DNA from: Strigamia acuminata
Taxonomy: Eukaryota > Arthropoda > Chilopoda > Geophilomorpha > Linotaeniidae
DNA length: 64,000 nucleotides
NCBI GenBank assembly: GCA_949358305.1
Contig: OX442314.1
Span: forward strand, 42,044,581-42,108,580
Reading direction: 5' to 3'
In this document: piece after piece, positions 1 through 54,055 of the stretch
How the letters are laid out: each line of letters begins with the position of its first letter
Position numbering within the stretch: the stretch's first letter is position 1
Notes under the pieces: model-generated
Seen by the model: only the letters and a program-made list of their open reading frames with translations
Told to the model about the DNA's origin: nothing
Databases searched by the model: none
Made by a program: the position numbers and the translations under genes

Positions 1-845
1 GCCAATGGACGAATAGAATGGTCAGATTCAGACAATAGTTTCCTCGTCACATGCTTGGTGTTCTCAGCCTTCCCAGCTTTAAGGGATATCAATGATATCA
101 GCTGGAGGTAACGCATGGTCCACAAACATGCTAGCAATGTTCTCTTCTGGTGTACAATCATAGGCTTGAATGTCACTCAGATATTTTCTCCTCCATGCCA
201 CAATGTCATTGCGCTCAATCAGCGCAGGATTACGCTTATGTCGCATAAATTTGAATCCAATATCGATTAACAATAATCGTAATGCGCTTTTCTTTAAATT
301 CGGAAGTGACTCATCATTCTGAATTTCAAGAACAATCTTCTGCAGTGTTGGAACCTCTCTTCTTCTAAATAATTCGTGCACTTTTGAGCGAATAGCACAT
401 TGCATGAACGAATCATATCTATGTATTCGCTTCTTATGCTTGTTGCACCTCTTCTTTCCAGGTGTTTTCAATTTACCTAATCAAAAAAGATTTTGTAATT
501 ATTAATTATGATTTATTTATTAAATTTTTATAATTATATTTCTCACATATCTCTCTTTTGATTTTTTTTAATGTTTTGTAATCCCACATCTGAGTGATCA
601 GACTAGGCCAATGGGAGCCAAGCTTCAGGGGGTGCTTTTTGAGTGTGGAAAGAGTATAGCAATGTTCTCTTCTGGTGTACAACCATTGCTCATCACTCTG
701 CAAATGAACAACGCAGAAGTAGGTTCATTGCTTTCAATTCTAGACAAATTTGCTGACTCAACTGGGTCGATGTATTTGCTAAAATCGGCCACGACTCATG
801 TGACATTTTGTGCCTCGAGATTGTGATATAAGCTCTTGTGTATGT
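1..845 (-). repeat. dispersed repeat, two segments also present at 17736-18053
   Basis: Bases 1-155 match 17736-17890 and bases 661-845 match 17871-18053 with scattered substitutions, so this is a rearranged copy of a dispersed family. Read on the minus strand, both copies encode fragments of the same unknown protein (shared short motif CTPEEN). Between the two segments lies a piece of a transposase exon (79-471). I do not recognise the family. The junction falls at a shared TCTTCTGGTGTACAA, which suggests a microhomology-mediated rearrangement (inference). Confidence 0.7.
79..471 (-). pseudogene. transposase N-terminal helix-turn-helix fragment (IS630/Tc1-like DDE type)
   Basis: The reading frame carries a basic start (KTPGKKRCNKHKKR) and then the pattern VHELFRRREVPTLQKI, ending with IERNDIVAWRRKYLSDI. 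That pattern is typical of the DNA-binding, helix-turn-helix part of IS630/Tc1-related transposases that are abundant in invertebrates. A splice acceptor (TGATTAG) lies directly upstream on the minus strand, so this is probably the second exon. The same exon recurs at 55444-55560 and 59560-59650, and its likely first exon is seen at 55651-56019. No DDE catalytic region follows; the frame switches to the unknown dispersed ORF and stops. A dead fragment. Confidence 0.6.
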
Positions 846-2019
846 AAGGGAACTCTTTGGAAATTCATTCACACTTTGGAGGCATTTTATACCGGCCAGC
901 AAGACATGACGCATACCACAGTGATTCGAGCAACTCCTAGTGAGGTTTTTTCGCATATTTAGGTGGCCGCTTGTCCTTAGCTGTAAACAATGACAAGTCG
1001 TACGCTTTGCAGAAATTGACGTTTATTCAATGAACTCAGGGTCTGCATGGAGCCTGGAGTCAGCTTTATTAAAGATGGCCTCATGTAATGCAACATGGTG
1101 AATGTCTGGGCATGGGAGCGAATGAAATAGCTTCAAGAAGTCTGCTTTTGCACATGCGTCTAATTTGAATCAATTCACTAATTGCTCCCATGAGTCATTG
1201 CTTGGATAATGTTCCAACACAGTAGCTGCTAACCTTTTATCACGTTCTTCCCATCTACAATTTACTGCTGCACCTTCCTCGCCTATGGAATTTTGCATTC
1301 GAACATATACCAGATGCATATGTCGTGCCAATGCTTCATATTTTGTGGGATGTGCCATTTGCTTCGCCAGCCATTTATGGGATCGGTTTGATTCTGGAGG
1401 AGTCATCGGTTCTTTTTTCACGCGATCTGTGGGTTCCGGATCGGATTCTTTGCTTAGTGACTCAGTCGTTACTTGGACGTTCGTTGGAGTGATTTGGATC
1501 GTTCGAGCAGGCCATTGGCTTTGATAGCTGTTTTTTTTTTAAGAACGATATTAACATAACTTAAGAGAAGAATTTCTCCATTGAATGCAACTGCTTGTGC
1601 CTTACAACAATTAAGCACTAGCGGTAAGATTATTGCTCTTTCATAGTCAGCAATCTCTATTGACAAAAACAACTAGGATTATAACAAAATAACTCTTAAA
1701 ATTGTGACAAAACAGTTGTTGCCAGCAACATATGGAAAAGAATTAATTTCAAATTAGTTCTTACCTTTTTTTTAAGGTGGTTTTTCATGTTGTTGCCTTT
1801 TTCCCTGATGTTGATTTTTCCCAGAAATGGTTTACAATGCTTTAAATAATTGTTCTTTTGTAATAAAAAATTGATTCCTTCATTTTCCTTTTGTTGAGTG
1901 GGGCGTGGCTCCTTTGTCTGCATCATTCATTTCGTTTTGGCCACGTTTCTTCTTTCTATTAATTTAGAAATGTCTAATTAGCGTTTTTGTTCGTTTTTGC
2001 GTAATGTTTGTTCGATTTA
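846..2019. other. no recognisable gene; repeat-derived remnants
   Basis: There are short open frames on both strands (for example 1170-1421 minus and 1696-1926 minus), but none shows a motif I recognise, codon bias or a good start context. I regard the stretch as decayed transposon or intergenic sequence. Confidence 0.4.
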
Positions 2020-2211
2020 TTCTTAGGAAACGGATATAACGAGCATAACTTTTGGTATGCCGTCAGGTATGACGAAACGTCGGATCCTCGTTCCAAACGC
2101 GGTGAGTCTTTGGATGGAGGAGGTAGCAGTGGAGATTTCTTGCAAATCGAGAGCATCTCGATCGTCGAATGGCTGGGTTGCGCTCTTTGGCCTCATAGTC
2201 TTGACACGTAG
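2020..2211 (-). pseudogene. older relative of the unknown ORF of the LTR element, 3' fragment
   Basis: On the minus strand a frame contains LSICKKSPLLPPPSKDSP followed shortly by YLTAYQKLCSLY. It matches the plus-strand ORF of the adjacent intact element (LSICKKSPPPPPPPKDSP and YLTAYQRLRSVY, about 9390-9525). The match is diverged and includes a frame change near 2150. The young element starts at 2212, and the same minus-strand frame resumes beyond its far end at 11107 once the GTAG duplication is counted once. The young element has therefore inserted into an older, inverted copy of its own cargo gene. Confidence 0.75.
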
Positions 2212-2789
2212 TGTGGTGACCTCAAATATTCCTATTTGAGGACGCACCATAATTCCAATTTGTCTTAGAAACATATTCAACAAGTTTATATGTTTTGTTT
2301 CAATGTAAATTGAAATAAAATATATATTAATTAAATATAAAACAAGACACAATATTACCCAAATAATATTGTGTTTTGCAGCAAGTTTTGGCCCAGCAAC
2401 AGCGTCAACCAATCGCGCTGCAGCATGCATTGCTTTGATGATGCTGCTAGGCGTGTGCCTGGGCGGAGCATCCCTTCCCCTCGCGCGTGCCCGGCTCAAT
2501 TGTTGCACACGACCCGAAGGCAGCCGTGTGTGATCTTTGTGCAACTCGTCATCTGCGCAGCTTTTCTGAGCAGATTTAGGAGTGAGCCAAACGGTTTTGG
2601 CCCACTCTTCCCGCATTCTTGATTCTGCTTCCAAACCATTCACATCTGTGTCAAACTTATGCCAACCATTGCTAAGTGTGATCTGTGATATCTGGAAGAG
2701 TTGAGATTCATTGCTGGTCCGTGCCAACTGTACGGAATAGCGCCTTTCTGCTTGAATTACTACGCGTAATTTAAGCCATTTCTGTGTGG

Positions 2790-3001
2790 AATTGACATTG
2801 AGCTTGCTCTGTCAATTTGAAGGCTTTGTGTTGAGTTTAACTCCACAAGGCGAACTGTGTTAAGACGGATTGTTACGTCGAGCTTGCTCCGTAATAATCA
2901 AACCGCTGTGTGCAAGACGTATTCTCGTGTTGAGCTTGCTCCGCGAGGATTTTAGTATATTTTAGCAACGTATTTTAGCGTTGAGTTTACTCCGCTAAAA
3001 T
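2790..3001 (+). other. array of five bulged stem-loops in the LTR
   Basis: Five consecutive hairpins are seen at 2790-2817, 2823-2851, 2868-2899, 2921-2950 and 2972-3001. Each has an outer stem of 8-10 bp (a few G-U pairs), a 2-nt pyrimidine bulge on the 5' side (TT or TC), an inner GAG/CTC stem and a 4-5 nt loop (CTTG, TTTAA, CTTG, CTTG, TTTA). Outer stems differ in sequence, for example AATTGACA/TGTCAATT and TTTTAGCG/CGCTAAAA, yet remain paired. That is the covariation expected of selected RNA structure. The position between a TATA-like region and a donor-like site suggests a transcribed leader or R region. Function is unknown; packaging, export or translation are possibilities only. Confidence 0.8.
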
Positions 3002-3051
3002 CCCGCGCTCACGCGACGCCATCGACGCCATCTTGGAGCCAACGGTCAACC

Positions 3052-3057
3052 GTGAGT
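3052..3057 (+). promoter_or_regulatory. possible splice donor in the 5' LTR
   Basis: GTGAGT in the context CAACCGTGAGTGTA. It lies upstream of gag and could pair with the acceptor-like AG at 7630-7631 to make a subgenomic mRNA for the cargo ORF. Inferred from consensus only. Confidence 0.35.
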
Positions 3058-3288
3058 GTAGATACTGAAGAAGAAGCCAGATCGACCCCCAAACATTATC
3101 TTTTTGCTGAATAATACCTCCTTTGTATTTTGAACGATTAAAACTATCTAATTTTTCCTTTACTCTGTGTAAAATCATTCCCCTAGACAAACATTTGGCC
3201 ACAGAGTAGAAGTCCTGTACGGCATCTCTATGACGATTGCTTGATAAGTCTCCTCGATTTATTAAGTAAAAACCCGGATCGCCGCACT

Positions 3289-3306
3289 TGGGGGCCTGTC
3301 CGGGAT
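3289..3306 (+). promoter_or_regulatory. primer binding site, tRNA-Pro-like
   Basis: TGGGGGCCTGTCCGGGAT starts two bases after the 5' LTR. It matches the complement of the 3' end of animal tRNA-Pro at 16 of 18 positions (two adjacent bases differ). This would prime minus-strand DNA synthesis. Confidence 0.75.
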
Positions 3307-3378
3307 AGTTTTGATTGTTAAAATCCGATTTTTGTAAAAAGATCCTTTATTTCCTTTGTTCTTTTTCAATTTGACAAA

Positions 3379-6270
3379 ATGGCGACGCCAATGCAAATTG
3401 TGAAACGACAGCGAGGTCGACCAAGCACTCAGAAACGAGCAGCGACGGTTTTGCCGGCTCTCGAGCCTGAAATGCTTGAGGAGAAAATTATTTCCGAAGA
3501 AATAACACCAGTTCCAGATCCGAAACAACTTAAGGATGCTGAAAATGAAGTTGCTCGAGCCCTGAGCGCATCAAGTGCGAGTTCTAACGAACAAGAACTC
3601 CCGCCACTTCCACTGGAGGAAGTGGAAAATACTTTAAAAGAAATGGAAAGTGAATCGTCTCACGAATCACCTCCTCGCATGACCATGCTGGATGCTTTGA
3701 GAAATCAAGCACGCTAGGATGGCGCCCAAATAACGGACGACATGACGGTGGAAGAGATTCATCGCGCCATGATACGACTTCACACTAATCGTGCCGTTTC
3801 AAATTTACAATTTGAAATGGAACGAAAAGAAGCTGAGCTTCAACAACAAAAAGCGGAGGTTGAGCTCCAACACATGGAACTCAATCGACAAAATGAGGAA
3901 TTTCTAGCCCAAAAAGCTAGAGAATACAGATTAAAAAGTGAAGTGGAAGATCTTTCTAAAATAAACGTTAGAAATGAACTTTCAATTCGCTCACATCAAG
4001 AGGCGCGAAGACAGCTCGAACTTACCAAAAGTAAGTTAGAGCTGAAAAACAAAGAGTTGATTGATTTGGCAGATCACTACCAACGCAATCATAATCAACT
4101 AGTGAGATATGCTGCTGAATTAGACACACGTGCTAAAACACAGCGTACTCGCGAAAGCAAAATAGCTAAGCGTGAAGATGAGATTTTCCACTCGCTGGAT
4201 CAACCCAGTACGAGCGGACAAGTCAAGTCTAGCGGCCCTGCTAAGCGATTACAACCGGACGAATCGCAAAATCAAATAAATGAGAATGAAATTCTCCGAG
4301 CTGATTTGTTGCGCACACAAGAAGAGCTTGCAGAAATGAAAGATTGTTTACAAGCAAGAAACTACACTGACCAATTGGTGCAACCAGAAATGGCTGCGCC
4401 AACTGTCCCTATTTTGACTCCCGAAACAATAACAATTTCTGTTGTTTCAGAGTTAAGTAGCCAATCTGGATTATCGAGTGATGACGACCAACGTTCGCGT
4501 CGTCGCCATCGCTCAAAAAGAAAACGTCCTTCAGATTCTGAGGAACGGAGAGCTGATCGCAATCCGCTCCCTGGTAATCGAAACCCTATTTTTCACAATA
4601 GTGACCGACTGTTGGGAATGGTAGACGATCGAAACAGACAGCATGAAACAGGTATTCACGTTGCCCGAACGATACCACTGGCTCAACAGCAAGATTCGTC
4701 GAAAAGAAGTCGACGAGAAATGAATCCAGCATGCGAACCACCCGACGGACATGAAAGCCCGCCAGGTGGGGGTCAGTATAGAAGAAATCCACCAGATGGA
4801 GGAAATCCAGATGGACATGGAGATGGACCACCTGGAGGTGGACGCCGACCGCCAAACGATGGTGACGGCGACCCACTCGACCCACCTGAAACGCCACATT
4901 TTAACACGCCTTCAAATTCACAATCTGATTCAAGGTCGGATTCTGATGTGAATGCGCAGCAAGAACGCGATAATCGACATCGATCTCATCGACGTCGACA
5001 TCGAGGCCATTCTTCTCGGCGTAATACACATTATTACACTGCTGAAGAAATTGATCGATTATTAGCTGATCGTCGATCTGCTGATCGATCTGACGCTACT
5101 GCCGATAACGCTGACATTGCATTACGACAGAAAATTGCACAATACACTGCCAACAACTGGACTCACGATCTAGTTGATGAAAGAACTATTAGATGGGATC
5201 ACATTAAACCCGCTTTATTCGATGGAGAATGGGAAGCTGGATCCACTCTTTTAGACAAAGTTTTACGAATTTCAAGGTTGAATGGCATTGCATGTCACAC
5301 TGCTTTGAAAAGAGTAGTACCAAAAGCTCTTATAGACCGAGCTGAGAAATGGTTTTATTCTAAACAATTTCAAAATTGGAATCACTTTGTAGAAGAATTC
5401 ATGACTGAGTATGGAGAGTCAAGTGAAGACTTATTACAAATGTGGGATAATCTTTCTCAAAATAAAGGCGAAAGTCTTCGCTCTTATTTAAGAAGGACTG
5501 AAGATTAATTGGTAACTCTCCCTTATACGATGGGAGACGCAGCCATTGATCGTCAATTCCGTCGTGGATTGACCGATTATTCAAAAAATGTTCTACTTTC
5601 TGTACGAGCACCTTATCCGGGTGGTTTCGCTGAATTAGCCAAATTTATGCGAGCCAATCAGATAAGGATTGACGAAAATTACAAAGCTTACTTACCAGCT
5701 GATGAAAAAGTTGCGTACGCTAAGCGACAGCAACGGAGAAAGGAGTTGGCAAAAGACACACGTTTTGCTAACACCCCTCTTTTGCAACCCCCAAAACGAG
5801 GAGATTTTTTGGCAGAGACTGCCAAGGAATCGAAAAAGGGATCGGATGGAAAAAATCCTCATCCAACCCCTAAAGCTCACTTGGCTGAAGTGACCGAAAT
5901 GGAAACTGCTTCTGAACCAGAGAAATCTGACTCGGAGCCAGAAAGTGAAGCAGCAGCTGCATTATTAGCAGTAGCAGTAGCAAGAAAATTTGGACCAAAG
6001 ATGGCGCCTAAAAACGTTACTTTTGGTTCACCAAAGACGGACGCGCTCAGTAGATCGAAGTCACCGACCCCTAAAAAAGATGAAGCCAAACGTTCAAGTT
6101 CACCTTCATCAAAGGTCGCTAAATCGCCCGCTACTGATCCATGTAACATCTGCAAAAAATTGGGACATTGGGCTAAAGAATGTCCTGATAGGAAATCGAG
6201 CAAAGACAAGATTATAGAAGAGTTCGAGAAATCGATGAAATCAATCGGCGAACTTCTAAAAAACTTGTAA
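3379..6270 (+). pseudogene. gag: gag, one frame broken by two in-frame stop codons
   Basis: The ATG at 3379 has a good context (AAAATGG). The frame runs to TAA at 6268 but is interrupted by TAG at 3715-3717 and TAA at 5506-5508, so three pieces (3379-3717, 3742-5508, 5509-6270) share one frame. The N-terminal half is charged and coiled-coil-like (runs of E, K, Q, L at about 3750-4150). Next come RS-rich and G/P/D-rich low-complexity stretches. A gypsy-type capsid region lies at about 5150-5700 (pattern LIDRAEKWF, FVEEFMTEYG, SLRSYLRRTE). A CCHC zinc knuckle, CNICKKLGHWAKEC, is at 6142-6183. Gag would form the particle and bind RNA. Either the copy is damaged or the stops are suppressed; the near-identical LTRs make the two nonsense codons notable. 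Confidence 0.85.
6258..6264 (+). promoter_or_regulatory. -1 ribosomal frameshift slippery heptamer A AAA AAC
   Basis: The heptamer sits in the gag frame exactly as A-AAA-AAC, one codon before the gag TAA at 6268. The -1 frame from here is the protease frame, which stays open to 7325. This is the classic retroviral slippery sequence. The downstream pseudoknot was not worked out. Confidence 0.8.
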
Positions 6271-7325
6271 GCGCGCATCCAGACGGTCTAGTGGATGCGA
6301 CGCCTACCGCCTCGGAAAATGAACTAACACCATCTCAAATTTTAGATGAATTTTTGAATACTCAGATTAAATTAGAAATTGAAAATAATTTAGTATTTCC
6401 AAAAATTGATGTTTCCAGTTTAAGGCTTGTGCTGCAAAATGAAAACATCACTGAAGAATTTTTTAAAGAAAAAGTTCAACAAATAAAAGTTGATTGGGAA
6501 TCTAAAATAAAAGATGCTGTTACTTTGCTAGATGGAAAAGCTAGGCCAACACCTGAAATTGTTGAAAGGTCAGATAAAATTGATTTACCTGGTCTTGATG
6601 AATGCATTGAAAAATTAATGGCTACAACGGTAGTCACTAATGATTTATTGGACGAATTACCATTGGATCCGCCGATAGAAATTAAGCCACCGCGACGTTT
6701 TAAGTGCAAGTACGCGGACATACCAAACAGCAATGATTTGCCGACGATTCGATTGCAGACGGCAAACGGTATGATAACAGGGATGTTAGACTCTGGAGCT
6801 AATCGAAGCTTCATGGCCTACTCCGTAGTAATTTCGCTGAAACTGGAAGATGAAATTCGACCAATTGGACCGGATGTGAGAGTTACGACTGCTTCAGAAG
6901 ATGTAGTCCCCGAAGGAACTCTCCTGCTTTCTTTTGCGTGGACACACGGGATGTTAAGTCATCCATTCATAATTTTGAGAAATAAATATCCTATTATTTT
7001 ATTAGGATGTGATTTCATGAATCGACTCAATATTCAACCAAATCCTAAGACCATGTCTTGGAATTTTGTTAAGACTTTGAAAGAAGATTTACCTTTTGTT
7101 CCTCAAGCGATTCTTGATCGTTATCAAGAGTTCCTTGATCCACCCGAAGAAGTAATGAAACGCGACTTTATTAAAGCAAATCACATGAAAGCTGGTTCCG
7201 CCACTGCATGTCAAGCTAAAGTTGCCAATGAAGAAAATATAGTACAAAGACTTGTTAGCGACGCTAATTTGTCAATGGAAAATAATTTAATGCTTGAAAA
7301 AGTATTAAAGAAACATGAAAAGTAA
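6264..7325 (+). CDS. pro: retroelement aspartic protease, expressed by -1 frameshift from gag
   Basis: The frame is open from the slippery site; no ATG is needed if it is made by frameshifting. The catalytic motif LDSGANRSFMA (about 6785-6817) fits the D-S-G-A signature of retropepsins. The flap-distal hydrophobic motif IILLGCDFM (about 6993-7019) fits the conserved ILG strand. The N-terminal about 150 residues are an acidic linker. The protein stops at TAA 7323-7325 with no reverse transcriptase following, which is highly unusual because gypsy protease is normally fused to pol. Expected role: cleavage of Gag. Confidence 0.8.
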   Translation, partial: LVSAHPDGLVDATPTASENELTPSQILDEFLNTQIKLEIENNLVFPKIDVSSLRLVLQNENITEEFFKEKVQQIKVDWESKIKDAVTLLDGKARPTPEIVERSDKIDLPGLDECIEKLMATTVVTNDLLDELPLDPPIEIKPPRRFKCKYADIPNSNDLPTIRLQTANGMITGMLDSGANRSFMAYSVVISLKLEDEIRPIGPDVRVTTASEDVVPEGTLLLSFAWTHGMLSHPFIILRNKYPIILLGCDFMNRLNIQPNPKTMSWNFVKTLKEDLPFVPQAILDRYQEFLDPPEEVMKRDFIKANHMKAGSATACQAKVANEENIVQRLVSDANLSMENNLMLEKVLKKHEK

Positions 7326-7631
7326 TTAAAAGTGCATTTTCACTCGGAAAAAGCGAAAAATTCGTTGGTAACGCCTTCGCAAGAAGGCGCCGCCATTTTT
7401 ATCATCAGATGGCGCTGTGTCTCGTTTTTGAGGCGTTGCTACGGTAACGCTCCAACATTGAAACATAGCCGTCGGAAACAACGTTTTTCACGATTTTTCA
7501 AACATTTTGAAAAATTTAACGAATCTAAACTGTCGAATGAAATCTCACCGTGATTTTATTCACTGAAAATTCGGAAATAATTATTTTACACGAAAAAATG
7601 GATTTTAATTATTTCTTCGAATATTTTACAG
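7326..7631 (+). promoter_or_regulatory. linker between protease and cargo ORF, ending in a splice-acceptor-like site
   Basis: There is no ORF with a recognisable motif. The stretch ends in a pyrimidine-rich run and TTTTACAG (AG at 7630-7631). The cargo frame is open from 7632 but has no in-frame ATG near its start. That arrangement is what a spliced, env-like subgenomic message would need (inference). Confidence 0.5.
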
Positions 7632-9854
7632 ATCATCCAGCTTCGGGAGACGCATCTCGAACTGCACCCCGATGTTCCGACCGATCCTGGAGTCTGGCGA
7701 CATGCATTGCCGCCGGAAATCATCAAGTCCAAGGGGAGACTGACGTTTTGGGCGGCCCGACACAAATTCTCCAGAACCTTAAACAAGCGATGGGGAACGA
7801 AGTTTCGGATCGCCTATTTAATCGATGGATTCGGTCATCGCGACGCCCTCGAGTGGGCAATGAAGCGCGACACCTTCGGACCACTGCGAAATGAGTTGCT
7901 AGACTTCGCCTTCGCAGTGATCGCTCAAGAAACGCGAGACCATCGCCGTTACTTCAACGCTCCTGCGTGGGAGCGTCGACAGATTTTGGAGGACATCTTC
8001 CAACGTCTTGACCAAACCAAGGCCGAGGTTGTACGCCTCTACCACGAATCTTTCCGTGTAACCACAGACGGAAAGAAACGTTGGATACCGACATGCCAGT
8101 CGGAAATGCATCAATTAGCCATGGGCGGATGTTTCCATGCTAACTTCGTGCCGAACCCGTATCCAGAGCCCGAGCCGCGGGTACCAATCGCATCCACCAT
8201 CCACGTGGTGCCACCGCGCTCCACGTCGAGGTCACGATCATCGAGGTCGCCCTACAGTGGCCGTCGCTCCTCCCCAACACAGTCGTCGGGGGAAGGCGCC
8301 ATTGGAGGGTTACCTCCACTTCAAAAGACTCGTCATCGCTCACATCATCGACGCGAGTCAACACCACCAAAAAGACATTCGAAGTCCGTGTCGAAACCCG
8401 CATCCCGAAGCCGACCTCGAGTGCAATCGCGCCAATCTTCCACGAGGAGTTCACTCTCGTCGCGTGAAGAAAGATCCAACGCTTCACAGCTTAGCGCTTC
8501 CTCCTCCGGCCGGATTGACTGGTCGGACGAGATAGCGAAAGAAGATCGACGCATCGCCGCATTGCAAGCCGGTCAAGGAGACGTCAACACCTCTTTGCCG
8601 TTCGCTTGCCGTCCAGTCATCAGCGACATGCGACCCGATACGTCTATGCCAGTGCCACAAGTGACGACGGTCATTCGTTTCGAGGGATCCCACATCTCGC
8701 CGGAACCATTTCCAGCACAGGAGTGCGCTGATCTCTGGAGGCGATTCTCATCGTTTCCCGAGACAGCCCAAACGATGTACCTCGCGCATCTGGACGAATA
8801 CTAGCACGCTCAGATCCGCGAAGGTGAGAAGGAATGGCAATGGCTTGCCCGAGAGTTGGAGTCGTGCAAGTCCGACAAGCAACTGCAACGGAAGCTGCAG
8901 AAGATGCACAGGAAGCTGTCGGAAGGACTACTTAGAATCCTGTTCCAAGGAGTCTTTCCTGACCTACGAATGGCTCTGGCGGCCGCCACTCGATTGTGGA
9001 CCGTGCCGTTAGGGCTTCCACGAGCCTTGCTGGACGATTGGGAGTCAGTTCGCCCCGATCCTCCAACGATGCTCGCCGAATTGACGCAACGAGCCGAGGC
9101 GACTGGCGAAACTCCGGCTGGATCCGCCATTCGACTACGGCAGGAATGGGCTACACTGAAGCAGCAGCGCGCAACGGAACGAGCCACCGCCCGTCCCGCT
9201 GGCGCACCACCGTCATCCGCAGCTCCACTCCACACTGCCATCACGGCAACGTCGAGTGTTTCCCGTGCAACCGAGGCACCAAGTTGCAACATCTCGTCTC
9301 CAATGGAGTGGCTCGACAGCGACGATCGCGAGTTCGTCGTGCCTGTGGCCAGCGGTGCCAGACCAAAGACGCGCGCCCCGGCTTCGCGCAGATCCAGATC
9401 CCTCTCGATCTGCAAAAAGTCGCCGCCACCGCCGCCACCGCCAAAGGATTCGCCGCCGAGAGATAGGGGATTGAACATGGCCACCTACCTCACCGCCTAT
9501 CAACGCTTGCGCTCGGTATACGCCTTCTGCTACATAACGAGTGCAACGAAGACGATTCTCCAGAACAACGAGGATCTCTGCAACCGAGTCTTCGCGTGGT
9601 TGGAGAATCACATCAAGGAGCAGCAGCCATGGATCCTCCATCAACGTCTCGTTTTTGCCAGGATCACGCCGAAAGACCCGCAAGAGTATTTCGAAATGGG
9701 GTTTGGACGAAGGGATGGTGTGAGACACATTAAGCAAGTGTGGCTTCACATCAACCCTGGCTTCCAGTCAGGACCGAACGCCGGCCGATCTTTGTGCACC
9801 GTCACAGAGCACAAGGATCCAAATGATCATTCGACGGACATGTTGCCTAAATAA
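7632..9854 (+). pseudogene. cargo ORF of unknown function with one in-frame TAG
   Basis: One frame runs from 7632 to the TAA at 9852, broken only by TAG at 8802-8804 (pieces 7707-8804 and 8856-9854). The first about 170 residues are a compact, W- and R-rich domain (for example FWAARHKFSRTLNKRWG, RYFNAPAWERRQILEDIF). An RS-rich, probably disordered region follows (about 8190-8480). After the stop comes a basic coiled-coil-like segment (KQLQRKLQKMHRKL), an A/T/P linker, a polyproline patch (SPPPPPPPKDSP, about 9410) and a C-terminal domain beginning YLTAYQRLRSVY. I recognise no family: it is not RT, integrase, a typical envelope (no signal peptide or membrane segment) or a transposase. GC content is higher than in gag. 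A diverged relative flanks the element on the other strand, so the gene belongs to a family. Confidence 0.7.
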
Positions 9855-10017
9855 TTAGGGAACATACCCGTCCATTAAAAAATAATTACTTTTTTATTTT
9901 TTTTTATATTGTAATAAAAAAGAATAAATATATATCCTGTTCCATTTTACTTTGAAACCTTGTGTTTTTATTCTCATACTTACCTGTCTCTTCTGGAAAA
10001 GAATAAGATTCTTTCTT
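9855..10017 (+). other. 3' untranslated part of the LTR element
   Basis: AT-rich sequence after the cargo stop with several AATAAA-like runs (near 9915-9925). No ORF. Confidence 0.5.
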
Positions 10018-10031
10018 AAAAGGGGGGGAAG
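10018..10031 (+). promoter_or_regulatory. polypurine tract
   Basis: AAAAGGGGGGGAAG directly abuts the 3' LTR at 10032, the standard position of the plus-strand primer in LTR elements. Confidence 0.85.
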
Positions 10032-11106
10032 TGTGGTGACCTCAAATATTCCTATTTGAGGACGCACCATAATTCCAATTTGTCTTAGAAACATATTCAA
10101 CAAGTTTATATGTTTTGTTTCAATGTAAATTGAAATAAAATATATATTAATTAAATATAAAACAAGACACAATATTACCCAAATAATATTGTGTTTTGCA
10201 GCAAGTTTTGGCCCAGCAACAGCGTCAACCAATCGCGCTGCAGCATGCATTGCTTTGATGATGCTGCTAGGCGTGTGCCTGGGCGGAGCATCTTTTCCCC
10301 TCGCGCGTGCCCGGCTCAATTGTTGCACACGACCCGAAGGCGGCCGTGTGTGATCTTTGTGCAACTCGTCATCTGCGCAGCTTTTCTGAGCAGATTTAGG
10401 AGTGAGCCAAACGGTTTTGGCCCACTCTTCCCGCATTCTTGATTCTGCTTCCAAACCATTCACATCTGTGTCAAACTTATGCCAACCATTGCTAAGTGTG
10501 ATCTGTGATATCTGGAAGAGTTGAGATTCATTGCTGGTCCGTGCCAACTGTACGGAATAGCGCCTTTCTGCTTGAATTACTACGCGTAATTTAAGCCATT
10601 TCTGTGTGGAATTGACATTGAGCTTGCTCTGTCAATTTGAAGGCTTTGTGTTGAGTTTAACTCCACAAGGCGAACTGTGTTAAGACGGATTGTTACGTCG
10701 AGCTTGCTCCGTAATAATCAAATCGCTGTGTGCAAGACGTATTCTCGTGTTGAGCTTGCTCCGCGAGGATTTTTGTATATTTTAGCAACGTATTTTAGCG
10801 TTGAGTTTACTCCGCTAAAATCCCGCGCTCACGCGACGCCATCGACGCCATCTTGGAGCCAACGGTCAACCGTGAGTGTAGATACTGAAGAAGAAGCCAG
10901 ATCGACCCCCAAACATTATCTTTTTGCTGAATAATACCTCCTTTGTATTTTGAACGATTAATACTATCTAATTTTTCCTTTACTCTGTGTAAAATCATTC
11001 CCCTAGACAAACATTTGGCCACAGAGTAGAAGTCCTGTACGGCATCTCTACGACGATTGCTTGATAAGTCTCCTCGATTTATTAAGTAAAAACCCGGATC
11101 GCCGCA
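10032..11106 (+). repeat. 3' LTR, 1075 bp
   Basis: Same length and termini as the 5' LTR; about seven substitutions by eye. It is followed by GTAG, matching the GTAG before 2212 (target-site duplication). Confidence 0.9.
10610..10821 (+). other. second copy of the five-hairpin array
   Basis: All five bulged stem-loops are preserved. The few LTR differences fall outside the stems, for example in the spacer after hairpin 3 and just after hairpin 4. Confidence 0.8.
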
Positions 11107-12240
11107 GTAGACGGGGCAGTTCGCTGACGACGTCTGATGTGGACGTTACAGAACGGATAAATTGAAGGGGGTTGTCACTCAATTTTAGTGGGGACGTGAT
11201 CGCCAAGGGGACAGGGGCGGTAAAGCCGCTATCATCTTGAGAGCATGTCCACTGCCAGAGTTTTCTGGCGGCATTGTTCACTGACTCTAAATCAACGATC
11301 ACGGAATGTTCTCTTGTGGAATCGTACCCCAGGGTCGGAAAGCTAACGCTCCGAACGCGTCTGAGACAGCACCTTGCAACAGAGAAGCTACTGTGCCCTC
11401 TGTGGAATTCAGGGTCGTTATCTGTCCAGACGACCCCTTCTCATCAAGGGAGGTTAATGACTCCATCTTTGCAACGAGGCCAACGCGGTTTTGCGCTAGT
11501 ATCTTAGTCGCTAACCGTCTACCACAACATTTAAGTGCACGCAGATAGGTCCCCAATCAATAGTGCCCATGGGGGCATTTGGTTGAATGGTCTGGTGGAG
11601 TCGCTCGAGCTGTTCACTAACAGGAAAGTGTTGGACGATCCATATGTTTGCACGCTGATTGTCTTTCAGCCTAGCGCGTCGGCAACAATTTGGTTGCGTT
11701 CACGATAATGTTCGAGGGTCTCGGCTTCTAAAGGCGGAGGTACGCCCTCGAGGTGGATATCCACATGTGCAGTCCTCCAACATGGTGGCATGATCCAGAT
11801 AATCTAAAAAAATTGAGATTGTTACACCGGCGTCCTCGTTCAGTTCCAATTGCAAGTAGTTTAGCCAAAACTTCGTAATGTTTCGCCACATCGTTCTGGA
11901 TGACAGAAATACTCGCAAACATTGATGATACCATTGTTGTAAGATGAGCAAGGGTTTGGAATCAGGCAGAGTGCCTGTGGTAAGCTCTCTGCTGAAATCC
12001 ATTGGATCTTCCGGTCAGGATATCTACTGTGGGGACGAGCAATGCATTGGGATCAGGCAGAGTGTCGTTCACTGGAGTCGAGGTTGTTGAACCTTCTTGG
12101 CTCGATAATGGCAGACTCGCTTCATTTTGAGAATTTGAAGGGGGCGATGGTAAAACTGCACTTGTTAAGGGTATATTCGGGTTTGGTAGGGGCTGACACA
12201 TATCTGCATTTTTCTTAAAACGCTTTCTATGTTTGCATTG
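11107..12240 (-). pseudogene. older inverted relative of the cargo ORF, 5' portion, decayed
   Basis: The minus-strand frame entering the insertion (ending SDVVSELPRL) continues beyond the young element into 2211-2020 once one GTAG is removed. Further upstream the minus strand holds broken frames: 11299-11556 (SLLQGAVSDAFGALAF, resembling ILFQGVFPDLRMALAA of the intact ORF), 11700-12002, and a P/S/T-rich stretch at 11962-12201. The overall order resembles the intact cargo gene, but only short blocks can be matched by eye. Several frameshifts make it a pseudogene. Confidence 0.5.
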
Positions 12241-20040: not shown

Positions 20041-21339
20041 ATGCCGCGCAGGAAATCAGCTTCCACTCTGCAAGAACTGTGTTTAAATGTTGCGACAACA
20101 CGATTCGACGAGGAAGAAATACAAGATGAACTCGAAAACCAACCGTCCAGAATCAAAAACAGCGTATTTGAAACGCTGTGTAACAAATTCCAACGTACCG
20201 ATCTGTGCTTGCCGTCAGACATTTTCGTGCACGCCGGCGCCGTGTCCCTCCGCCGGTTGAACATGTTCGACCTGCCCATCCGTCACCTGTGCTGGAAAAT
20301 AGGAAAAACCTGTCACAACCTCGTGGATTTAAGCTTGGAAAAAGTTTTCGGCGACGAATCCCTCTCGATTTCATCCGCAGTCAAACTGGTGCGAAGTTTA
20401 CCGAAACTTCAGCGATTAAGCCTCGAGTTCAGAGAAGAATTCACGGACGACGTTGCGGCGGCGATCGGAAACAATTGTCCGGCGATGACAAACCTCAACA
20501 TGGCGGGTTGCTTCGAAATCACCGACGTCGGGCTGCACTCGTTAATCCGCTGCGACAAGCTGCAATATTTGAACGTCGAATCAACTCGTGTCACGGCCAA
20601 TGGGTGTTTGTTCATTCTCAACCGACTGCCGCGTTTAAAAGTGTTCGAACACGAATATTGGCCCGAACTATTTTCCGAGTTGGCGCAACAGTCGAATAGA
20701 AACAGTTATTACTCGATCGAAAAGGTTCCGGAGATAAATAACGAACACATTCCTATCCTGAGCGCCATTTTTCCGAATTTACGAAGCATTCATTTGAAGA
20801 GTCGTCCGGATTTTGATCATTTAAAATGGTCGCCACGAGTGACGAGTCTTCACATGTTTAGGGTTACGTCCGTCGATGTTGGACTTATTAATCGCGCTTG
20901 GCCAATGTTAGGGAAATTAACGTTAGTGCATTGTACAATTGCCAACGGAAGTGGCGGTATTGTTGAGGCTCCGTTGAAAAATCTTCGTCAGCTGTTTCTA
21001 CATTGCGGCGAAGATCTCATTATTGAACAGCAAATGAAAGCATTGTTGGTGCGGTGTAAACGTTTGGAGATATTGTGCGTTGGTAATTGTCAAATAGTTT
21101 TCGACGATTTGGTTTCGAAGCTTGTTGAGTCGAATGCGCTTCAATGTCTAAAAATATTGGCTTTTACGTCGTGCCACTGTTTGACTTCCGGTTCGGTCAT
21201 AAAATTGCTGGGAATTCGAAATCCATTGAACGAGTTGTACTTCTGGTGTTGTGATAATATTGGCGCTTGTGCCTACGATGAAATCAGACGTTACGTCGAA
21301 AGTAAAAACTTAGATTTGCGCACACACTTGGAGTTCTAG
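20041..21339 (+). CDS. leucine-rich-repeat protein, FBXL-like, intronless
   Basis: 432 codons from an ATG in GTCGACATG context to TAG. From about residue 75 onward it has irregular LRRs of the ribonuclease-inhibitor/AMN1 type, including LVDLSLEKV, LPKLQRLSLEF, MTNLNMAGCFEITDVGL, LQYLNVESTRVT and LEILCVGNCQIV, down to about residue 400. No convincing F-box is seen at the N terminus, so the link to SCF ubiquitin ligases is by LRR type only. The polyadenylation signal AATAAA is at 21364. GC content and codon use stand out from the AT-rich surroundings, as expected of a real gene. Intact and probably expressed; whether it is retroposed cannot be told. Confidence 0.8.
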   Translation: MPRRKSASTLQELCLNVATTRFDEEEIQDELENQPSRIKNSVFETLCNKFQRTDLCLPSDIFVHAGAVSLRRLNMFDLPIRHLCWKIGKTCHNLVDLSLEKVFGDESLSISSAVKLVRSLPKLQRLSLEFREEFTDDVAAAIGNNCPAMTNLNMAGCFEITDVGLHSLIRCDKLQYLNVESTRVTANGCLFILNRLPRLKVFEHEYWPELFSELAQQSNRNSYYSIEKVPEINNEHIPILSAIFPNLRSIHLKSRPDFDHLKWSPRVTSLHMFRVTSVDVGLINRAWPMLGKLTLVHCTIANGSGGIVEAPLKNLRQLFLHCGEDLIIEQQMKALLVRCKRLEILCVGNCQIVFDDLVSKLVESNALQCLKILAFTSCHCLTSGSVIKLLGIRNPLNELYFWCCDNIGACAYDEIRRYVESKNLDLRTHLEF

Positions 21340-36740: not shown

Positions 36741-36840
36741 TGGTTCAGTAACTATTACTTGAACAGTTATTGCAGAAATTCCAAGAAAATTCTTGATTCT
36801 ATAAAAATAAATAAAATTATTAGTTATCTGCTTTAAAAAT

Positions 36841-37000
36841 TGGGGAAAATGTCACATGTCATGACAGAATGGTATGAAAAATGTGACAAAATATCACAAA
36901 AAAATGTGGGAATATGTCACGAAACAAATGACAGAACGACAACACAAATGTGACAGAATATCACAAAAAAATGTTATTCCACACCGTCTATTCATACGCC
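36841..37000. repeat. TGTGACA/ATATCACA-rich short repeat
   Basis: Repeated words ATGTGACA and ATATCACAAAAAAATG; also at 53870-54000 in the older copy. Confidence 0.5.
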
Positions 37001-40012: not shown

Positions 40013-43000
40013 TAAGCAAAATCTGGCTAAACACACACACCAGCTTGGATTCATCTAAAATTTTAAGAAAAAATTCATTTGCAGAACACAGTTGCTTTTC
40101 TCCATTAAAAAATTATGGGATTGTAAGGTTTAGTTTTAAGTTTACCGTATTCAATTCTTTCAAGATCAATTTCTGTAAAATTTTTTTCCTTGGCTGATTC
40201 CAAGATTGTAATTTGTCTGTACATGTATCAGTGTCACCTTTATAACCAAGTCTTACAAATTCCCTAATACCAAAACAAAATGCTGCAATGTGTTTGCAGG
40301 ACCCATGAGCTGCTAGACCAGCTGGGCATCTACAGCTAGCATAAATTATACTACAGACATTGTTCATAGCTAACTTAATTTTATAATCGCTACATCTTTT
40401 CTCATTGTAGGCAGACATATACATCTAAAATAAACAACTTCATTCAATTTTTTGAATGTGTCTCTTCTTAAATAAACCCAGAGACTGGCTATTCATTTTT
40501 TTAAAATCCTGCACAGATTCTTCATTTATGTATTTCTTATCAACGAAGTAGGCGAACATACAGTATTCAGAATGGTAAATCCCGGAATTCATGGGAAGCC
40601 AGGTTGCATTGTCAACAAAGGTTGAATCTTCATGATTAGCAGCATCCGATGTACTTCGTGCATTCACTGCTTTTGTAGTTCCAGTTGTTGGTTCAGTAAC
40701 TATTACTTGAACAGTTATTGCAGAAATTCCAAGAAAATTCTTGATTCTATAAAAATAAATAAAATTATTAGTTATCTGCTTTAAAAATTGGGGAAAATGT
40801 CACATGTCATGACAGAATGGTATGAAAAATGTGACAAAATATCACAAAAAAATGTGGGAATATGTCACGAAACAAATGACAGAACGACAACACAAATGTG
40901 ACAGAATATCACAAAAAAATGTTATTCCACACCGTCTATTCATACGCCACTCGTTGCCAATCTTTTATGGCTTCACCGATCTGGGCACTCTGATAAGTGT
41001 CCAATACAGGCAAAGCATATTGCTGTTCGTGGACCGGACATTGTTTGTATCGAACCCACTGCACACGAGAAAATTCGTCTGGGCTCAATCTGTGAGTGTG
41101 AGCTCCTCCGCTCGGACGTGCACACTGTGGTTGGTGACGGTGTCGCTGACCACTTTATGCATTGCATAAGGAGGGATTGGATTTTCCGGGAGATACCATA
41201 ATCGCTCCGGATCTTCTTTAGCTGACTCATACGTCATGTCTGAGTCAAATCTAGGATCAATTGCTTTCCAAACATCTTTTTCTTCCAATATCGAACATTC
41301 ATACGGGAAAAACTAGTTGATTTAATACGTTTCTCGTGAATTTTCCAGTTAATCCCGGAATTGCGAGTTTTCACATTTGTAGTATGCATCTGAAACATGT
41401 TTTCATAAAATGTCCATCCCATACCACATTAGTCGAGGTTTGCAGTATTCATTGCTGTGTTCAAAACATTTTCATATCGATTTTCTAATATGACAAGGAT
41501 CAATTATAATGAATATTGGCCCGTTTTGACAAATTGGATTGATACGTTTGTAATGCACACCCTTAAACATCTCGTTATTTTCTTCAGTATTTGCTTCATT
41601 CTCATTGCATTCTGAGAGTGCAAAGGTTTCAAGTTGAAACTTTCAACAAACATGTTCTGTTTATAGAATGTGCATCACCAATACTATGAACTCTCAGCAC
41701 CTTAAATGTTACCAAACACTTGGCATGTCATGTTTACTACACAGTTTGCAGCTGGTTTCTCAACACATCACCGTATTTTGTGAATTCCACATCAAAGGTT
41801 GTCCAAAATGTCCCTGCTCCTACTTTTCTACCAATTATTAATTCTGTTTCAAATTTTGGAAGCCATAACTATTTCCCATGAAGTCGTGTGAACTTTAAGT
41901 TGTGGACTTTCTTATCTTATCAACTATAGAAAAAAAAGTTGGTGATTTAGGCCACGTCTTTACAACACTTCTCCTAGAGCTGCAGTGACCAGTGACTTTC
42001 CGATAGTTGTGTTTCAGCTGTTTCACACCTGTATGCATGTTGTTGTTGTTGTTGAATCATGTAGGTTTCACTATCGCTCTTCATGGTGGGGTACCTGCAA
42101 CATTAGTGCCCTGGTTACTTGATTGGAATAGATGATGTTTAATGTTTGCATTTGCTTCTGTAAGGGAGAAAATGCACCTGGTGTTGGCACACTTGCTACC
42201 GGTAGTGGTGGCAGAATTGCTGTTGTTGGTTGCGTCGAATTTCCGTGTACACTGTACGTGTTTCTTGGCAAAAGGTTCAAACCATTGAACTTACCATCAG
42301 TATCGTTCTCGAAATACTGGAATCTGGCCAGGTCTGTTAGAAATATTTCAGTTGGTCTTCCATATTTGAATCTAATATTGTCATGATATAATTTGTACCA
42401 TTCTACATGCAGCATGATGCGTGTTTTACTTTCCAAGCTGATGGTTGTGTATCAAGATGTTTATGATTTTCCCGGGTCGTAATTTATCTGAAATAATCTC
42501 AATATTGCCATTAGACGCAGACCAATTGGCAAGAATGTACGATGTTTGGTGATTCTTGATTTTTGAGTACCAAATAAATTTTGTCCATTTCTAAGACATA
42601 TTACGGTACTCGCTTTGCAGATGAAGGAATAAAGAGAGTTGCGTGTTGATTATGATTATACATGAAATGGTACACATTCTTTAGCGTAAGTCCGATTCTG
42701 AAAATGTGTAATTTTCTTTTTTTGCTATTGTATAGGATGTTAAGTCGACAGACCAATCAATCATTGCCAGTAATTGGATATGAACAAAAACTAAACTTTA
42801 GAACATTGATCAAACAATCGCAAGTGTTATAAAACTTAGTCCATATATGCAACAGTTGTTTGATTTTGCCGTGGTGGTGTGCTTAATGTTAACAAACGCA
42901 CGATATCAACAAAAGCACATGTTGTACAACAAACTAAGTTAAAACAATGAATTCAAAATGTCCTTACCCGATCTTCTCCATTCGTCGGTGATTTCTCCAT

Positions 43001-43960: not shown

Positions 43961-46900
43961 TAAGCAAAATCTGGCTAAACACACACACCAGCTTGGATTC
44001 ATCTAAAATTTTAAGAAAAAATTCATTTGCAGAACACAGTTGCTTTTCTCCATTAAAAAATTATGGGATTGTAAGGTTTAGTTTTAAGTTTACCGTATTC
44101 AATTCTTTCAAGATCAATTTCTGTAAAATTTTTTTCCTTGGCTGATTCCAAGATTGTAATTTGTCTGTACATGTATCAGTGTCACCTTTATAACCAAGTC
44201 TTACAAATTCCCTAATACCAAAACAAAATGCTGCAATGTGTTTGCAGGACCCATGAGCTGCTAGACCAGCTGGGCATCTACAGCTAGCATAAATTATACT
44301 ACAGACATTGTTCATAGCTAACTTAATTTTATAATCGCTACATCTTTTCTCATTGTAGGCAGACATATACATCTAAAATAAACAACTTCATTCAATTTTT
44401 TGAATGTGTCTCTTCTTAAATAAACCCAGAGACTGGCTATTCATTTTTTTAAAATCCTGCACAGATTCTTCATTTATGTATTTCTTATCAACGAAGTAGG
44501 CGAACATACAGTATTCAGAATGGTAAATCCCGGAATTCATGGGAAGCCAGGTTGCATTGTCAACAAAGGTTGAATCTTCATGATTAGCAGCATCCGATGT
44601 ACTTCGTGCATTCACTGCTTTTGTAGTTCCAGTTGTTGGTTCAGTAACTATTACTTGAACAGTTATTGCAGAAATTCCAAGAAAATTCTTGATTCTATAA
44701 AAATAAATAAAATTATTAGTTATCTGCTTTAAAAATTGGGGAAAATGTCACATGTCATGACAGAATGGTATGAAAAATGTGACAAAATATCACAAAAAAA
44801 TGTGGGAATATGTCACGAAACAAATGACAGAACGACAACACAAATGTGACAGAATATCACAAAAAAATGTTATTCCACACCGTCTATTCATACGCCACTC
44901 GTTGCCAATCTTTTATGGCTTCACCGATCTGGGCACTCTGATAAGTGTCCAATACAGGCAAAGCATATTGCTGTTCGTGGACCGGACATTGTTTGTATCG
45001 AACCCACTGCACACGAGAAAATTCGTCTGGGCTCAATCTGTGAGTGTGAGCTCCTCCGCTCGGACGTGCACACTGTGGTTGGTGACGGTGTCGCTGACCA
45101 CTTTATGCATTGCATAAGGAGGGATTGGATTTTCCGGGAGATACCATAATCGCTCCGGATCTTCTTTAGCTGACTCATACGTCATGTCTGAGTCAAATCT
45201 AGGATCAATTGCTTTCCAAACATCTTTTTCTTCCAATATCGAACATTCATACGGGAAAAACTAGTTGATTTAATACGTTTCTCGTGAATTTTCCAGTTAA
45301 TCCCGGAATTGCGAGTTTTCACATTTGTAGTATGCATCTGAAACATGTTTTCATAAAATGTCCATCCCATACCACATTAGTCGAGGTTTGCAGTATTCAT
45401 TGCTGTGTTCAAAACATTTTCATATCGATTTTCTAATATGACAAGGATCAATTATAATGAATATTGGCCCGTTTTGACAAATTGGATTGATACGTTTGTA
45501 ATGCACACCCTTAAACATCTCGTTATTTTCTTCAGTATTTGCTTCATTCTCATTGCATTCTGAGAGTGCAAAGGTTTCAAGTTGAAACTTTCAACAAACA
45601 TGTTCTGTTTATAGAATGTGCATCACCAATACTATGAACTCTCAGCACCTTAAATGTTACCAAACACTTGGCATGTCATGTTTACTACACAGTTTGCAGC
45701 TGGTTTCTCAACACATCACCGTATTTTGTGAATTCCACATCAAAGGTTGTCCAAAATGTCCCTGCTCCTACTTTTCTACCAATTATTAATTCTGTTTCAA
45801 ATTTTGGAAGCCATAACTATTTCCCATGAAGTCGTGTGAACTTTAAGTTGTGGACTTTCTTATCTTATCAACTATAGAAAAAAAAGTTGGTGATTTAGGC
45901 CACGTCTTTACAACACTTCTCCTAGAGCTGCAGTGACCAGTGACTTTCCGATAGTTGTGTTTCAGCTGTTTCACACCTGTATGCATGTTGTTGTTGTTGT
46001 TGAATCATGTAGGTTTCACTATCGCTCTTCATGGTGGGGTACCTGCAACATTAGTGCCCTGGTTACTTGATTGGAATAGATGATGTTTAATGTTTGCATT
46101 TGCTTCTGTAAGGGAGAAAATGCACCTGGTGTTGGCACACTTGCTACCGGTAGTGGTGGCAGAATTGCTGTTGTTGGTTGCGTCGAATTTCCGTGTACAC
46201 TGTACGTGTTTCTTGGCAAAAGGTTCAAACCATTGAACTTACCATCAGTATCGTTCTCGAAATACTGGAATCTGGCCAGGTCTGTTAGAAATATTTCAGT
46301 TGGTCTTCCATATTTGAATCTAATATTGTCATGATATAATTTGTACCATTCTACATGCAGCATGATGCGTGTTTTACTTTCCAAGCTGATGGTTGTGTAT
46401 CAAGATGTTTATGATTTTCCCGGGTCGTAATTTATCTGAAATAATCTCAATATTGCCATTAGACGCAGACCAATTGGCAAGAATGTACGATGTTTGGTGA
46501 TTCTTGATTTTTGAGTACCAAATAAATTTTGTCCATTTCTAAGACATATTACGGTACTCGCTTTGCAGATGAAGGAATAAAGAGAGTTGCGTGTTGATTA
46601 TGATTATACATGAAATGGTACACATTCTTTAGCGTAAGTCCGATTCTGAAAATGTGTAATTTTCTTTTTTTGCTATTGTATAGGATGTTAAGTCGACAGA
46701 CCAATCAATCATTGCCAGTAATTGGATATGAACAAAAACTAAACTTTAGAACATTGATCAAACAATCGCAAGTGTTATAAAACTTAGTCCATATATGCAA
46801 CAGTTGTTTGATTTTGCCGTGGTGGTGTGCTTAATGTTAACAAACGCACGATATCAACAAAAGCACATGTTGTACAACAAACTAAGTTAAAACAATGAAT

Positions 46901-52868: not shown

Positions 52869-54055
52869 AATGTTGGGTAGTGTTTTACAAATGTTACCAA
52901 AATTAGAGCTAGTTAATCTAGCCCTATGTAAATCCAAATATAGCTTGCAATTGCCTGTGTTTGTTGTTCTGTAGTTTTAATAGTTTATAAATTAATTGTC
53001 ATTAAACTTTCTAACTAAATCTAAATTCAGGCACAATGTAGTTTTCATATTTCAATGAAATTATCATAAGACACACAAGATCCAGTAAGCAAAATCTGGC
53101 TACACCCACACACCAGCTTGGATTCATCTAAAATTTTAAGAAAAAATTCATTTGCAGAACACAGTTGCTTTTCTCCAATAAAAAATCATAGGGTTGTAAG
53201 GTTTAGTTTTAAGTTTACCATATTCAATTATTTCAAGATCAATTTCTGTAATTTTTTTTTCCTTGGCTGATTCCAAGATTGTAATTTGTTTGTACATGTA
53301 TCAGTGTCACCTTTATAACCAAGTCTTACAAATTCCTCAATACCAAAACAAAATGCTGCAATGTGTTTGCAGGACCCATGAGGTGCTAGACCAGCTGGGC
53401 ATCCACAGCTAGCATAAATTATACTACAGACATTGTTCATTGCTAACTTGATTTTATAATCTCTATCTTTTCTCATTGTAGGCAGACATATACATCTAAA
53501 ATAAACAACTTCATTCATTTTTTTGAATGTGCCCCTTTTTAAATAAACCCAGAGACTGGCAATTCATGTTTTTAAAATATTGCACAGATTCTTCATCCAT
53601 GTATTTCCTATCAACGAAGTAGGCGAACATACAGTATTCGGAATGGTAAATTCCGGAATTCATGGGAAGCCAGGTTGCATTGTCAACAAAGGTTGAATCT
53701 TCATGATTAGCAGCATCCGATGTACTTGGTGCATTCACTGCTTTTGTAGTTCCAGTTGTTGGTTCAGTAACTATTACCTATTACAGTTATTGCAGAATTT
53801 CCAAGAAAATTCTTGATTCTATAAAAATAAATAAAATTATTAGTTATCTGCTTTAAAAATTGGGGAAAATGTCACATATCATGACAGAATGGTATGAAAA
53901 ATGTGACAAAATATCACAAAAAAATATGGGAATATGTCACGAAAAAAATGACAGAATGACACCAAAAATGTGACAGAATATCACAAAAAAATGTTATTCC
54001 ACACCGTCAATTCATACGCCACTCGTTGCCAATCTTTTATGGCCTCGCTGATCTG
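52869..54055 (-). pseudogene. older copy of the SWIM/YqaJ-element segment
   Basis: Colinear with 35853-37040 but diverged. It keeps the SWIM signature (ASCGCPAGLAPHGSCKHIAA) at 53228-53518. Here the frame around MNEVVYFRCICLPTMRKDRD is better preserved than in the triplicated units, showing that the split in those units is secondary. It serves as an outgroup for the triplication. Confidence 0.7.

Follow-up and report, generated by a model that had tools for sequence, protein, structure and literature searches.

The closest described systems to the hairpin array reported here are the TAR hairpins of HIV-1 and HIV-2, stem-loop 1 of 7SK RNA, the core encapsidation signal of MoMuLV, and Ty3 with other Ty3/gypsy elements. 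The parts of HIV TAR that are critical for Tat are a bulge U followed by a G-C and an A-U pair (PMC7599994). TAR starts at +1 of the transcript, and the HIV-2 Tat site AGAUUG has a UU bulge, as is found in the array (PMC10970485). In the arginine sandwich the bulge pyrimidine forms a triple with the stem and stacks on the nucleotide that precedes the bulge; in 7SK the UU bulge engages in U40:A43-U66 (PMC6189040); the account in PMC10083321, however, has the Tat and HEXIM peptides contacting the adjacent pairs instead of the 7SK triples, which were weak and transient in simulations. A comparable grouping of hairpins is the MoMuLV core encapsidation signal, in which three stem-loops are jointly needed for tight nucleocapsid binding (PMC7599994). 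For the Ty elements, packaging sequences were not precisely defined and the structure of Ty3 RNA was uncharacterised as of 2016, and what that account says on these elements includes no hairpin array (PMC4974528).

The array in Strigamia acuminata shares with TAR a 5' pyrimidine bulge with U as its first base, the G-C and A-U pairs that follow, and its place in LTR-derived RNA, but it consists of five tandem short hairpins, has no hexaloop and belongs to a Ty3/gypsy element without a known Tat. The hexaloop of TAR is read by cyclin T1; a TAR-type hexaloop is absent from the loops of the array, all of which have at most 5 nt. The MoMuLV signal is not known to have a repeated identical bulge core and is sited downstream of the 5' LTR. 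With 7SK stem-loop 1 the array has in common a two-base pyrimidine bulge and a U that may cap a triple formed with upper pair 2, A-U (PMC6189040), whereas 7SK carries four motifs in one helix with GAUC and the array one motif per hairpin in five hairpins with GAGY. No match to 7SK was obtained in the Rfam searches. The array is neither HIV TAR nor 7SK, and a limited search of the open-licence literature did not find a comparable LTR hairpin array. An LTR of the retrozyme type with a hammerhead ribozyme was likewise rejected, as the Rfam search gave no ribozyme family match.

The window, i.e., the whole stretch of 64,000 bases that was analysed (C1:42044581-42108580 of a 237.5-Mb genome), contains a retroelement with LTRs and a short target duplication, a PBS and a polypurine tract, as in Ty3/gypsy elements (Table 1). 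Its internal region spans 6.7 kb between the LTRs and has at its start the PBS-like TTGGGGGCCTGTCCGGGA, similar to TGGGGGCCG, which is termed a tRNA-Pro site in PMC10309623. The open reading frames on either side of the Gag segment share its frame, and gag therefore looks interrupted by the stops at 3715-3717 and 5506-5508. The protease-like segment had no protein hits in the search, and the five main open reading frames of the element no match to RT, RNase H or integrase. For the 3' reading frame there was no Pfam match to either of its two pieces, and its C-terminal piece had no relatives in the protein database. This 3' region of the element is present at all 40 places scored, the window included, one of which lies between the integrase and the 3' LTR of a longer relative (L039).

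Table 1. Position and make-up of the retroelement, its hairpin array and neighbouring features in the window
Feature	Position	Strand	Details
5' LTR	2212..3286	+	TG...CA ends; 4-bp target duplication GTAG at 2208-2211 and 11107-11110
U1, upstream unbulged covarying hairpin	2718..2736	+	C-G, U-A and U-G at one pair
U2, upstream unbulged covarying hairpin	2755..2771	+	U-A to C-G at one pair
H1	2789..2818	+	9-bp outer stem, UU bulge, GAG/CUC, CUUG loop
H2	2823..2851	+	8-bp outer stem, UU bulge (UC in 42 of 68 sequences), GAG/CUC, UUUAA loop
H3	2868..2899	+	10-bp outer stem, UC bulge, GAG/CUC, CUUG loop
H4	2921..2950	+	9-bp outer stem, UU bulge (some copies UC), GAG/CUC, CUUG loop (some CGUG)
H5	2972..3001	+	9-bp outer stem, UU bulge (some copies UC), GAG/CUC, UUUA loop
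ATTAAA, candidate poly(A) signal	3137..3142	+	kept in five aligned LTR sequences
Primer-binding-site-like TTGGGGGCCTGTCCGGGA	3288..3305	+	
Gag segment (open reading frame)	3742..5508	+	Retrotrans_gag 22.7 bits, under the 24.1 cut-off
Gag arginine-rich block 1, RSRRRHRSKRKRPS	4492..4533	+	candidate RNA-binding partner
Gag arginine-rich block 2, RHRSHRRRHRGHSSRR	4975..5022	+	
Gag C-terminal segment	5509..6270	+	CCHC zinc knuckle (above cut-off)
Aspartic-protease-like segment	6291..7325	+	matches under cut-off
3' reading frame	7707..9854	+	Arg/Ser-rich, function unassigned; in-frame stop 8802-8804
Polypurine tract preceding 3' LTR	10018..10031	+	
3' LTR	10032..11106	+	7 differences to 5' LTR over 1074 compared sites
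Second array copy, in 3' LTR	10609..10821	+	

Many LTR-array pairs of the genome are spaced 11.4-11.8 kb apart, compared to 7.8 kb in the window, and spacings of 9.0 to 18.4 kb occur as well. The one longer relative examined, L039, has an open frame with RVT_1, RT_RNaseH, Integrase_H2C2 and rve, and the best solved chain for its Pol is Ty3 Gag-Pol. Judged from these sequences the LTR is a member of a large Ty3/gypsy family, with the RT-RNase H-integrase order and the Ty3-like RT taken from L039 only and the 4-bp target duplication from the window copy. The window element itself looks recent and non-autonomous. A search with Pol returned 1030 hits, and among the 120 listed, most of them unnamed, those with names were largely from arthropods, plus two fishes; the RT search of viral contigs found nothing. 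Elsewhere in the window, an open reading frame at 48539-49336 (- strand) resembles by eye the RNase H-integrase segment of a different Ty3/gypsy element, and one of 432 aa at 20041-21339 (+ strand) appears leucine-rich-repeat-like by eye. Rfam gave a tRNA match of 40.7 bits at 61044-61115 (- strand), where ARAGORN (bacterial settings) gave none. Arrays of a 67-bp repeat recur at 36835-36973, 40783-40921, 44731-44869 and 53855-53992, and the spacing of exactly 3948 bases between the first three suggests a large tandem duplication.

Within the 5' LTR a TATA-like sequence and an AATAAA are found around 2316-2341, GCCATCTTGG at 3027-3036 is YY1-like, and the ATTAAA at 3137 reads ATTAAT in the 3' LTR of the window. 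These signals allow the array to be situated in R, U5 or U3. As every LTR position falls into one of these three, the array would be present in the genomic RNA at one or both ends. The LTR's first 200 bases (2212-2411) fold on the + strand far beyond shuffled sequences (z -7.7), more strongly than the array, and their hairpins are distinct from those of the array: inverted repeats lie at 2287-2326 (containing AATAAA) and 2343-2378, and a hairpin is seen by eye near 2220-2250.

The array itself occupies 2789-3001 and comprises five hairpins on one strand, each with an outer stem of 8-10 bp, a 2-nt pyrimidine bulge on the 5' side, a GAG/CTC inner stem and a short loop. The first-pass annotation had described five tandem bulged stem-loops of one architecture, and both the + strand fold and the module scan bear this out; H2 had to be corrected to an outer stem of 8 bp and a loop of 5 nt. 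On the + strand, 2780-3010 has a minimum-energy fold (-73.5 kcal/mol, z -3.81) that contains all five hairpins together with a closing helix, a helix around H4 and a small hairpin. None of 200 shuffled sequences folded equally well; equal folding of shuffles would have spoken against the array. The - strand also folds (z -2.90, 1 of 200 shuffles as good), which is partly a necessary consequence of inverted repeats. In folds of sliding 150-nt windows over the LTR, with 60 shuffles each, the two best + strand windows over the array reached z -5.2 and -3.4 and the others overlapping it -1.65 to -2.9, while - strand windows overlapping the array ranged from +0.9 to -3.5. Folded singly, the hairpins form the 2-nt 5' bulge in 59 of 66 (H1), 65 of 68 (H2), 62 of 68 (H3), 62 of 67 (H4) and 66 of 68 (H5) sequences.

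A scan of both strands of the 64,000 bases for YY-GAG-N3-6-CTC with at least 6 outer pairs recovered 10 sites, all on the + strand and all in the two LTR arrays, with none on the - strand and none outside these arrays. Genome-wide, a strict two-module pattern had 162 matches (up to two per array), against 0 when read backwards. As a negative control, a similar two-module pattern occurred in 6 contigs of the IMG/VR viral collection, none of which (0 of 6) formed the hairpin. Rfam gave no family match over the array (three hits below threshold at other places in 1-12000 were disregarded), and the suggestion of a tRNA-binding module found no support. The array is also not unchanged between the two LTRs, as had been stated, but differs at 2903 and 2954, both in linkers.

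The five hairpins probably share ancestry, and their shared core thus partly reflects descent. H3-H5 have a 30-nt direct repeat in common at a spacing of 51-52 nt, which identifies them as diverged tandem duplicates. Copies also exist in which H1 is absent or damaged (L104, L109) or H4 is missing (L105).

Covariation was assessed in 68 sequences of the region 2690-3060 (alignment A2), drawn from 99 loci that represent 85 places. Similarity searches, some with L104 as query and each scoring the best 40 of 267-337 candidates, supplied 64 of these sequences; the remaining four (L104-L107) were chosen from pattern hits demanding an intact core in two modules. Another set of pattern hits (L074-L103; 19 places, 12 of them already in the alignment) was excluded before counting. 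The structure scored has 76 pairs and includes the upstream hairpins U1 and U2. Standard pairs occupy 99.1% of the 5135 cells, compared to 35-47% with the partner slid, and changes on both sides of a pair occur in 117 cells; shuffles have 29.4 (sd 3.9) such cells and the slid versions 4-12. Eleven pairs show two-sided changes, as opposed to 7.5 in shuffles, of which 5 of 500 reach 11. Nine of the eleven lie in the array: two in the H1 stem, the loop-closing pairs of H1 and H2, the outermost pair of H2, two in H3 and two in H5; U1 and U2 contribute one covarying pair each, and H4 has no two-sided pair change in the 68 sequences. Further pair types did not exceed the shuffles (49 vs 52.4). Restricted to the array, the count is 4354 paired cells out of 4390, with 92 two-sided cells.

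One place is represented twice in this alignment, by L128 and by the shorter cut L120. Little changes when L120 is removed: in the remaining 67 sequences 5015 of 5059 cells are paired and 115 are two-sided, G.U and A.C mispairs number 308 and 24, and the core is present in 325 of 332 modules. Four further sequences from the excluded pattern hits have 297 of 303 cells paired, G.U 20, A.C 0 and the core in 18 of 20. Parsimony requires between 35 and 49 steps, according to the tree used; as copies may recombine, we rely on at least one event per pair only, so that about 11 two-sided changes are secure. RNAalifold, unaided, recovered H2, H3 and H5 nearly whole, H1 and H4 partially, and both upstream hairpins.

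Strand-symmetric transitions in a palindrome are expected to yield equal numbers of G.U and A.C mispairs. On the + strand we counted 317 G.U but 24 A.C cells. Distinct mispair types, which are the safer figures because cells are not independent, number 39 for G.U and 17 for A.C (p 0.005), and those common to at least two sequences 24 and 6 (p 0.001). This excess of G.U points to sense-strand RNA rather than cruciform DNA as the selected molecule. By its substitution pattern among copies from one genome, the array is a sense-strand RNA structure under selection.

The most conserved part of the module is its core. A U occupies bulge base 1 in 336 of 337 modules (1 of 337 cells non-consensus), whereas base 2 drifts, with C in 171 and U in 162 (97 of 337 non-consensus). 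Non-consensus cells are similarly rare in the upper pairs (7 of 675 in the first, 1 of 675 in the second, A-U, and 6 of 675 in the third) and amount to 71 of 1403 in the loop, 369 of 6097 in the outer stem and 515 of 4155 in the linkers. Below the bulge, H1 has an A-U pair and H2-H4 have G-C in nearly all copies, while H5 has G-C in 47 and A-U in 20 of 68. Loops are mainly CUUG, UUUA, CGUG or UUUAA (maximum 5 nt), closed by a Y-R pair whose covariation indicates that loop stability is under selection. The covarying RNA module with constant bulge and inner stem that had been proposed from the single locus is therefore upheld by the two-sided changes, the excess of G.U over A.C and the near-invariant core, although the constancy applies to the first bulge base and, in the loop, to the Y-R closing pair only, not to bulge base 2. 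U followed by G-C and A-U is present in 330 of 337 modules, and at the level of sequence the module has what TAR-type and arginine sandwich sites require. By analogy we claim that the array would work like a TAR or sandwich site, and claim no descent from one.

The evidence favours an arginine-rich protein as the binding partner of the array. Gag contains two arginine-rich blocks, both upstream of the zinc knuckle. Thirteen Gag sequences were compared, namely the window and 12 of the best 40 Gag places listed (the window being among the 40), which are 96-98% identical to the window. Distinct single-base codon changes in their block region number 55 synonymous and 17 nonsynonymous (rough omega about 0.11). 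Twelve of the 13 sequences share an identical block 1 and 11 of the 13 an identical block 2; the departures from block 2 are one in-frame stop and one short deletion. The arginine-rich 3' frame is a second candidate. The host genome has two HEXIM family matches above the curated cut-off, where 14 control genomes have none.

With moderate confidence we interpret the array as a multivalent docking platform on the genomic RNA for an arginine-rich protein, most likely the family's own Gag. It would be an RNA element acting in cis on the genomic RNA of the retrotransposon itself, in which each hairpin may provide one site of the arginine-sandwich type, the 5' bulge U forming a predicted U.A-U triple with the G-C pair in between. 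Five such sites in tandem could bind an arginine-rich protein multivalently and selectively. The likeliest partner would be Gag with its two conserved arginine-rich blocks, and, Gag being the likeliest partner, the likeliest job would be to mark the genomic RNA for export or for packaging into particles. That the window element has no RT match in its five main open reading frames and keeps the array in both LTRs is what one expects when a cis signal is used in trans. The choice of Gag is the least certain part of this account. Arginine-rich blocks are common, and arginine-richness is also a property of the 3' frame. Further points against the account are the conservation of upper pair 3 and of the loop pair, which the sandwich model does not need, the probable common ancestry of the hairpins, the lack of two-sided changes in H4, the number of further pair types, the copies with H1 or H4 missing or damaged, and the peptide contacts beside the 7SK triples (PMC10083321). 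It is conceivable, and we propose it more tentatively, that an LTR lineage outside the retroviruses independently evolved a system like Tat/TAR or Rev/RRE, in which an arginine-rich protein encoded by the element reads the five-hairpin array for elongation, export or packaging.

The HEXIM family matches in the host make a transcriptional role similar to that of TAR a live rival, though an unlikely one. In this alternative the array on the nascent RNA would recruit P-TEFb, via an arginine-rich protein of the element or by mimicking 7SK toward HEXIM, and so drive elongation from the LTR. Its location in the LTR and the match of the core to TAR and 7SK sandwich elements agree with such a role. 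However, TAR sits at +1 of the transcript (PMC10970485), whereas no start site was identified from the sequence of this LTR; the loops CUUG and UUUA differ from the TAR hexaloop; and the 7SK core GAUC is missing, with GAGY instead. In addition, a fully formed classical sandwich is described as not bound by HEXIM (PMC6189040).

We likewise regard it as improbable that the hairpins are a structural element without a dedicated protein, aiding strand transfer, dimerisation, packaging or stability, with the core kept by folding alone. The same roles have been proposed for TAR, which according to a study cited in PMC7599994 can be replaced by any stable stem-loop when the transcription need is removed, and the covarying loop-closing pair fits this explanation. 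Folding alone, however, accounts neither for the U at bulge base 1 in 336 of 337 modules beside a drifting base 2 nor for the retention of the bulge.

An origin of the pattern at the DNA level, as palindromic or repeated transcription-factor sites or cruciforms in a U3 enhancer, is very improbable. Tandem repeats are common in LTR enhancers, and a transcription start downstream of 3001 would put the array in U3. The excess of G.U over A.C on the + strand is, however, not expected from DNA palindromes, and it leads us to reject the cruciform or factor-site reading; moreover, the outer stems vary between hairpins yet remain complementary, a pairing that factor sites do not need. Least probable of all is a neutral by-product of the tandem duplication of a palindrome, which the 30-nt repeat of H3-H5 and its regular spacing would suit, but which is at odds with the two-sided changes in the stems and with the contrast in variation between the linkers (12.4% of cells) and the core positions, i.e., bulge base 1 and the upper pairs (0.1-1.0%).

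How Ty3/gypsy-type elements select their own RNA is poorly defined, at least for the yeast Ty elements as of 2016 (PMC4974528). The natural alignment of many copies in the genome of Strigamia acuminata isolates a compact site of precise chemistry, for which the element itself encodes a candidate partner. Should binding be shown, a TAR-like recognition core would exist outside lentiviruses and 7SK, and the array would offer a handle on RNA selection in a very large group of retroelements.
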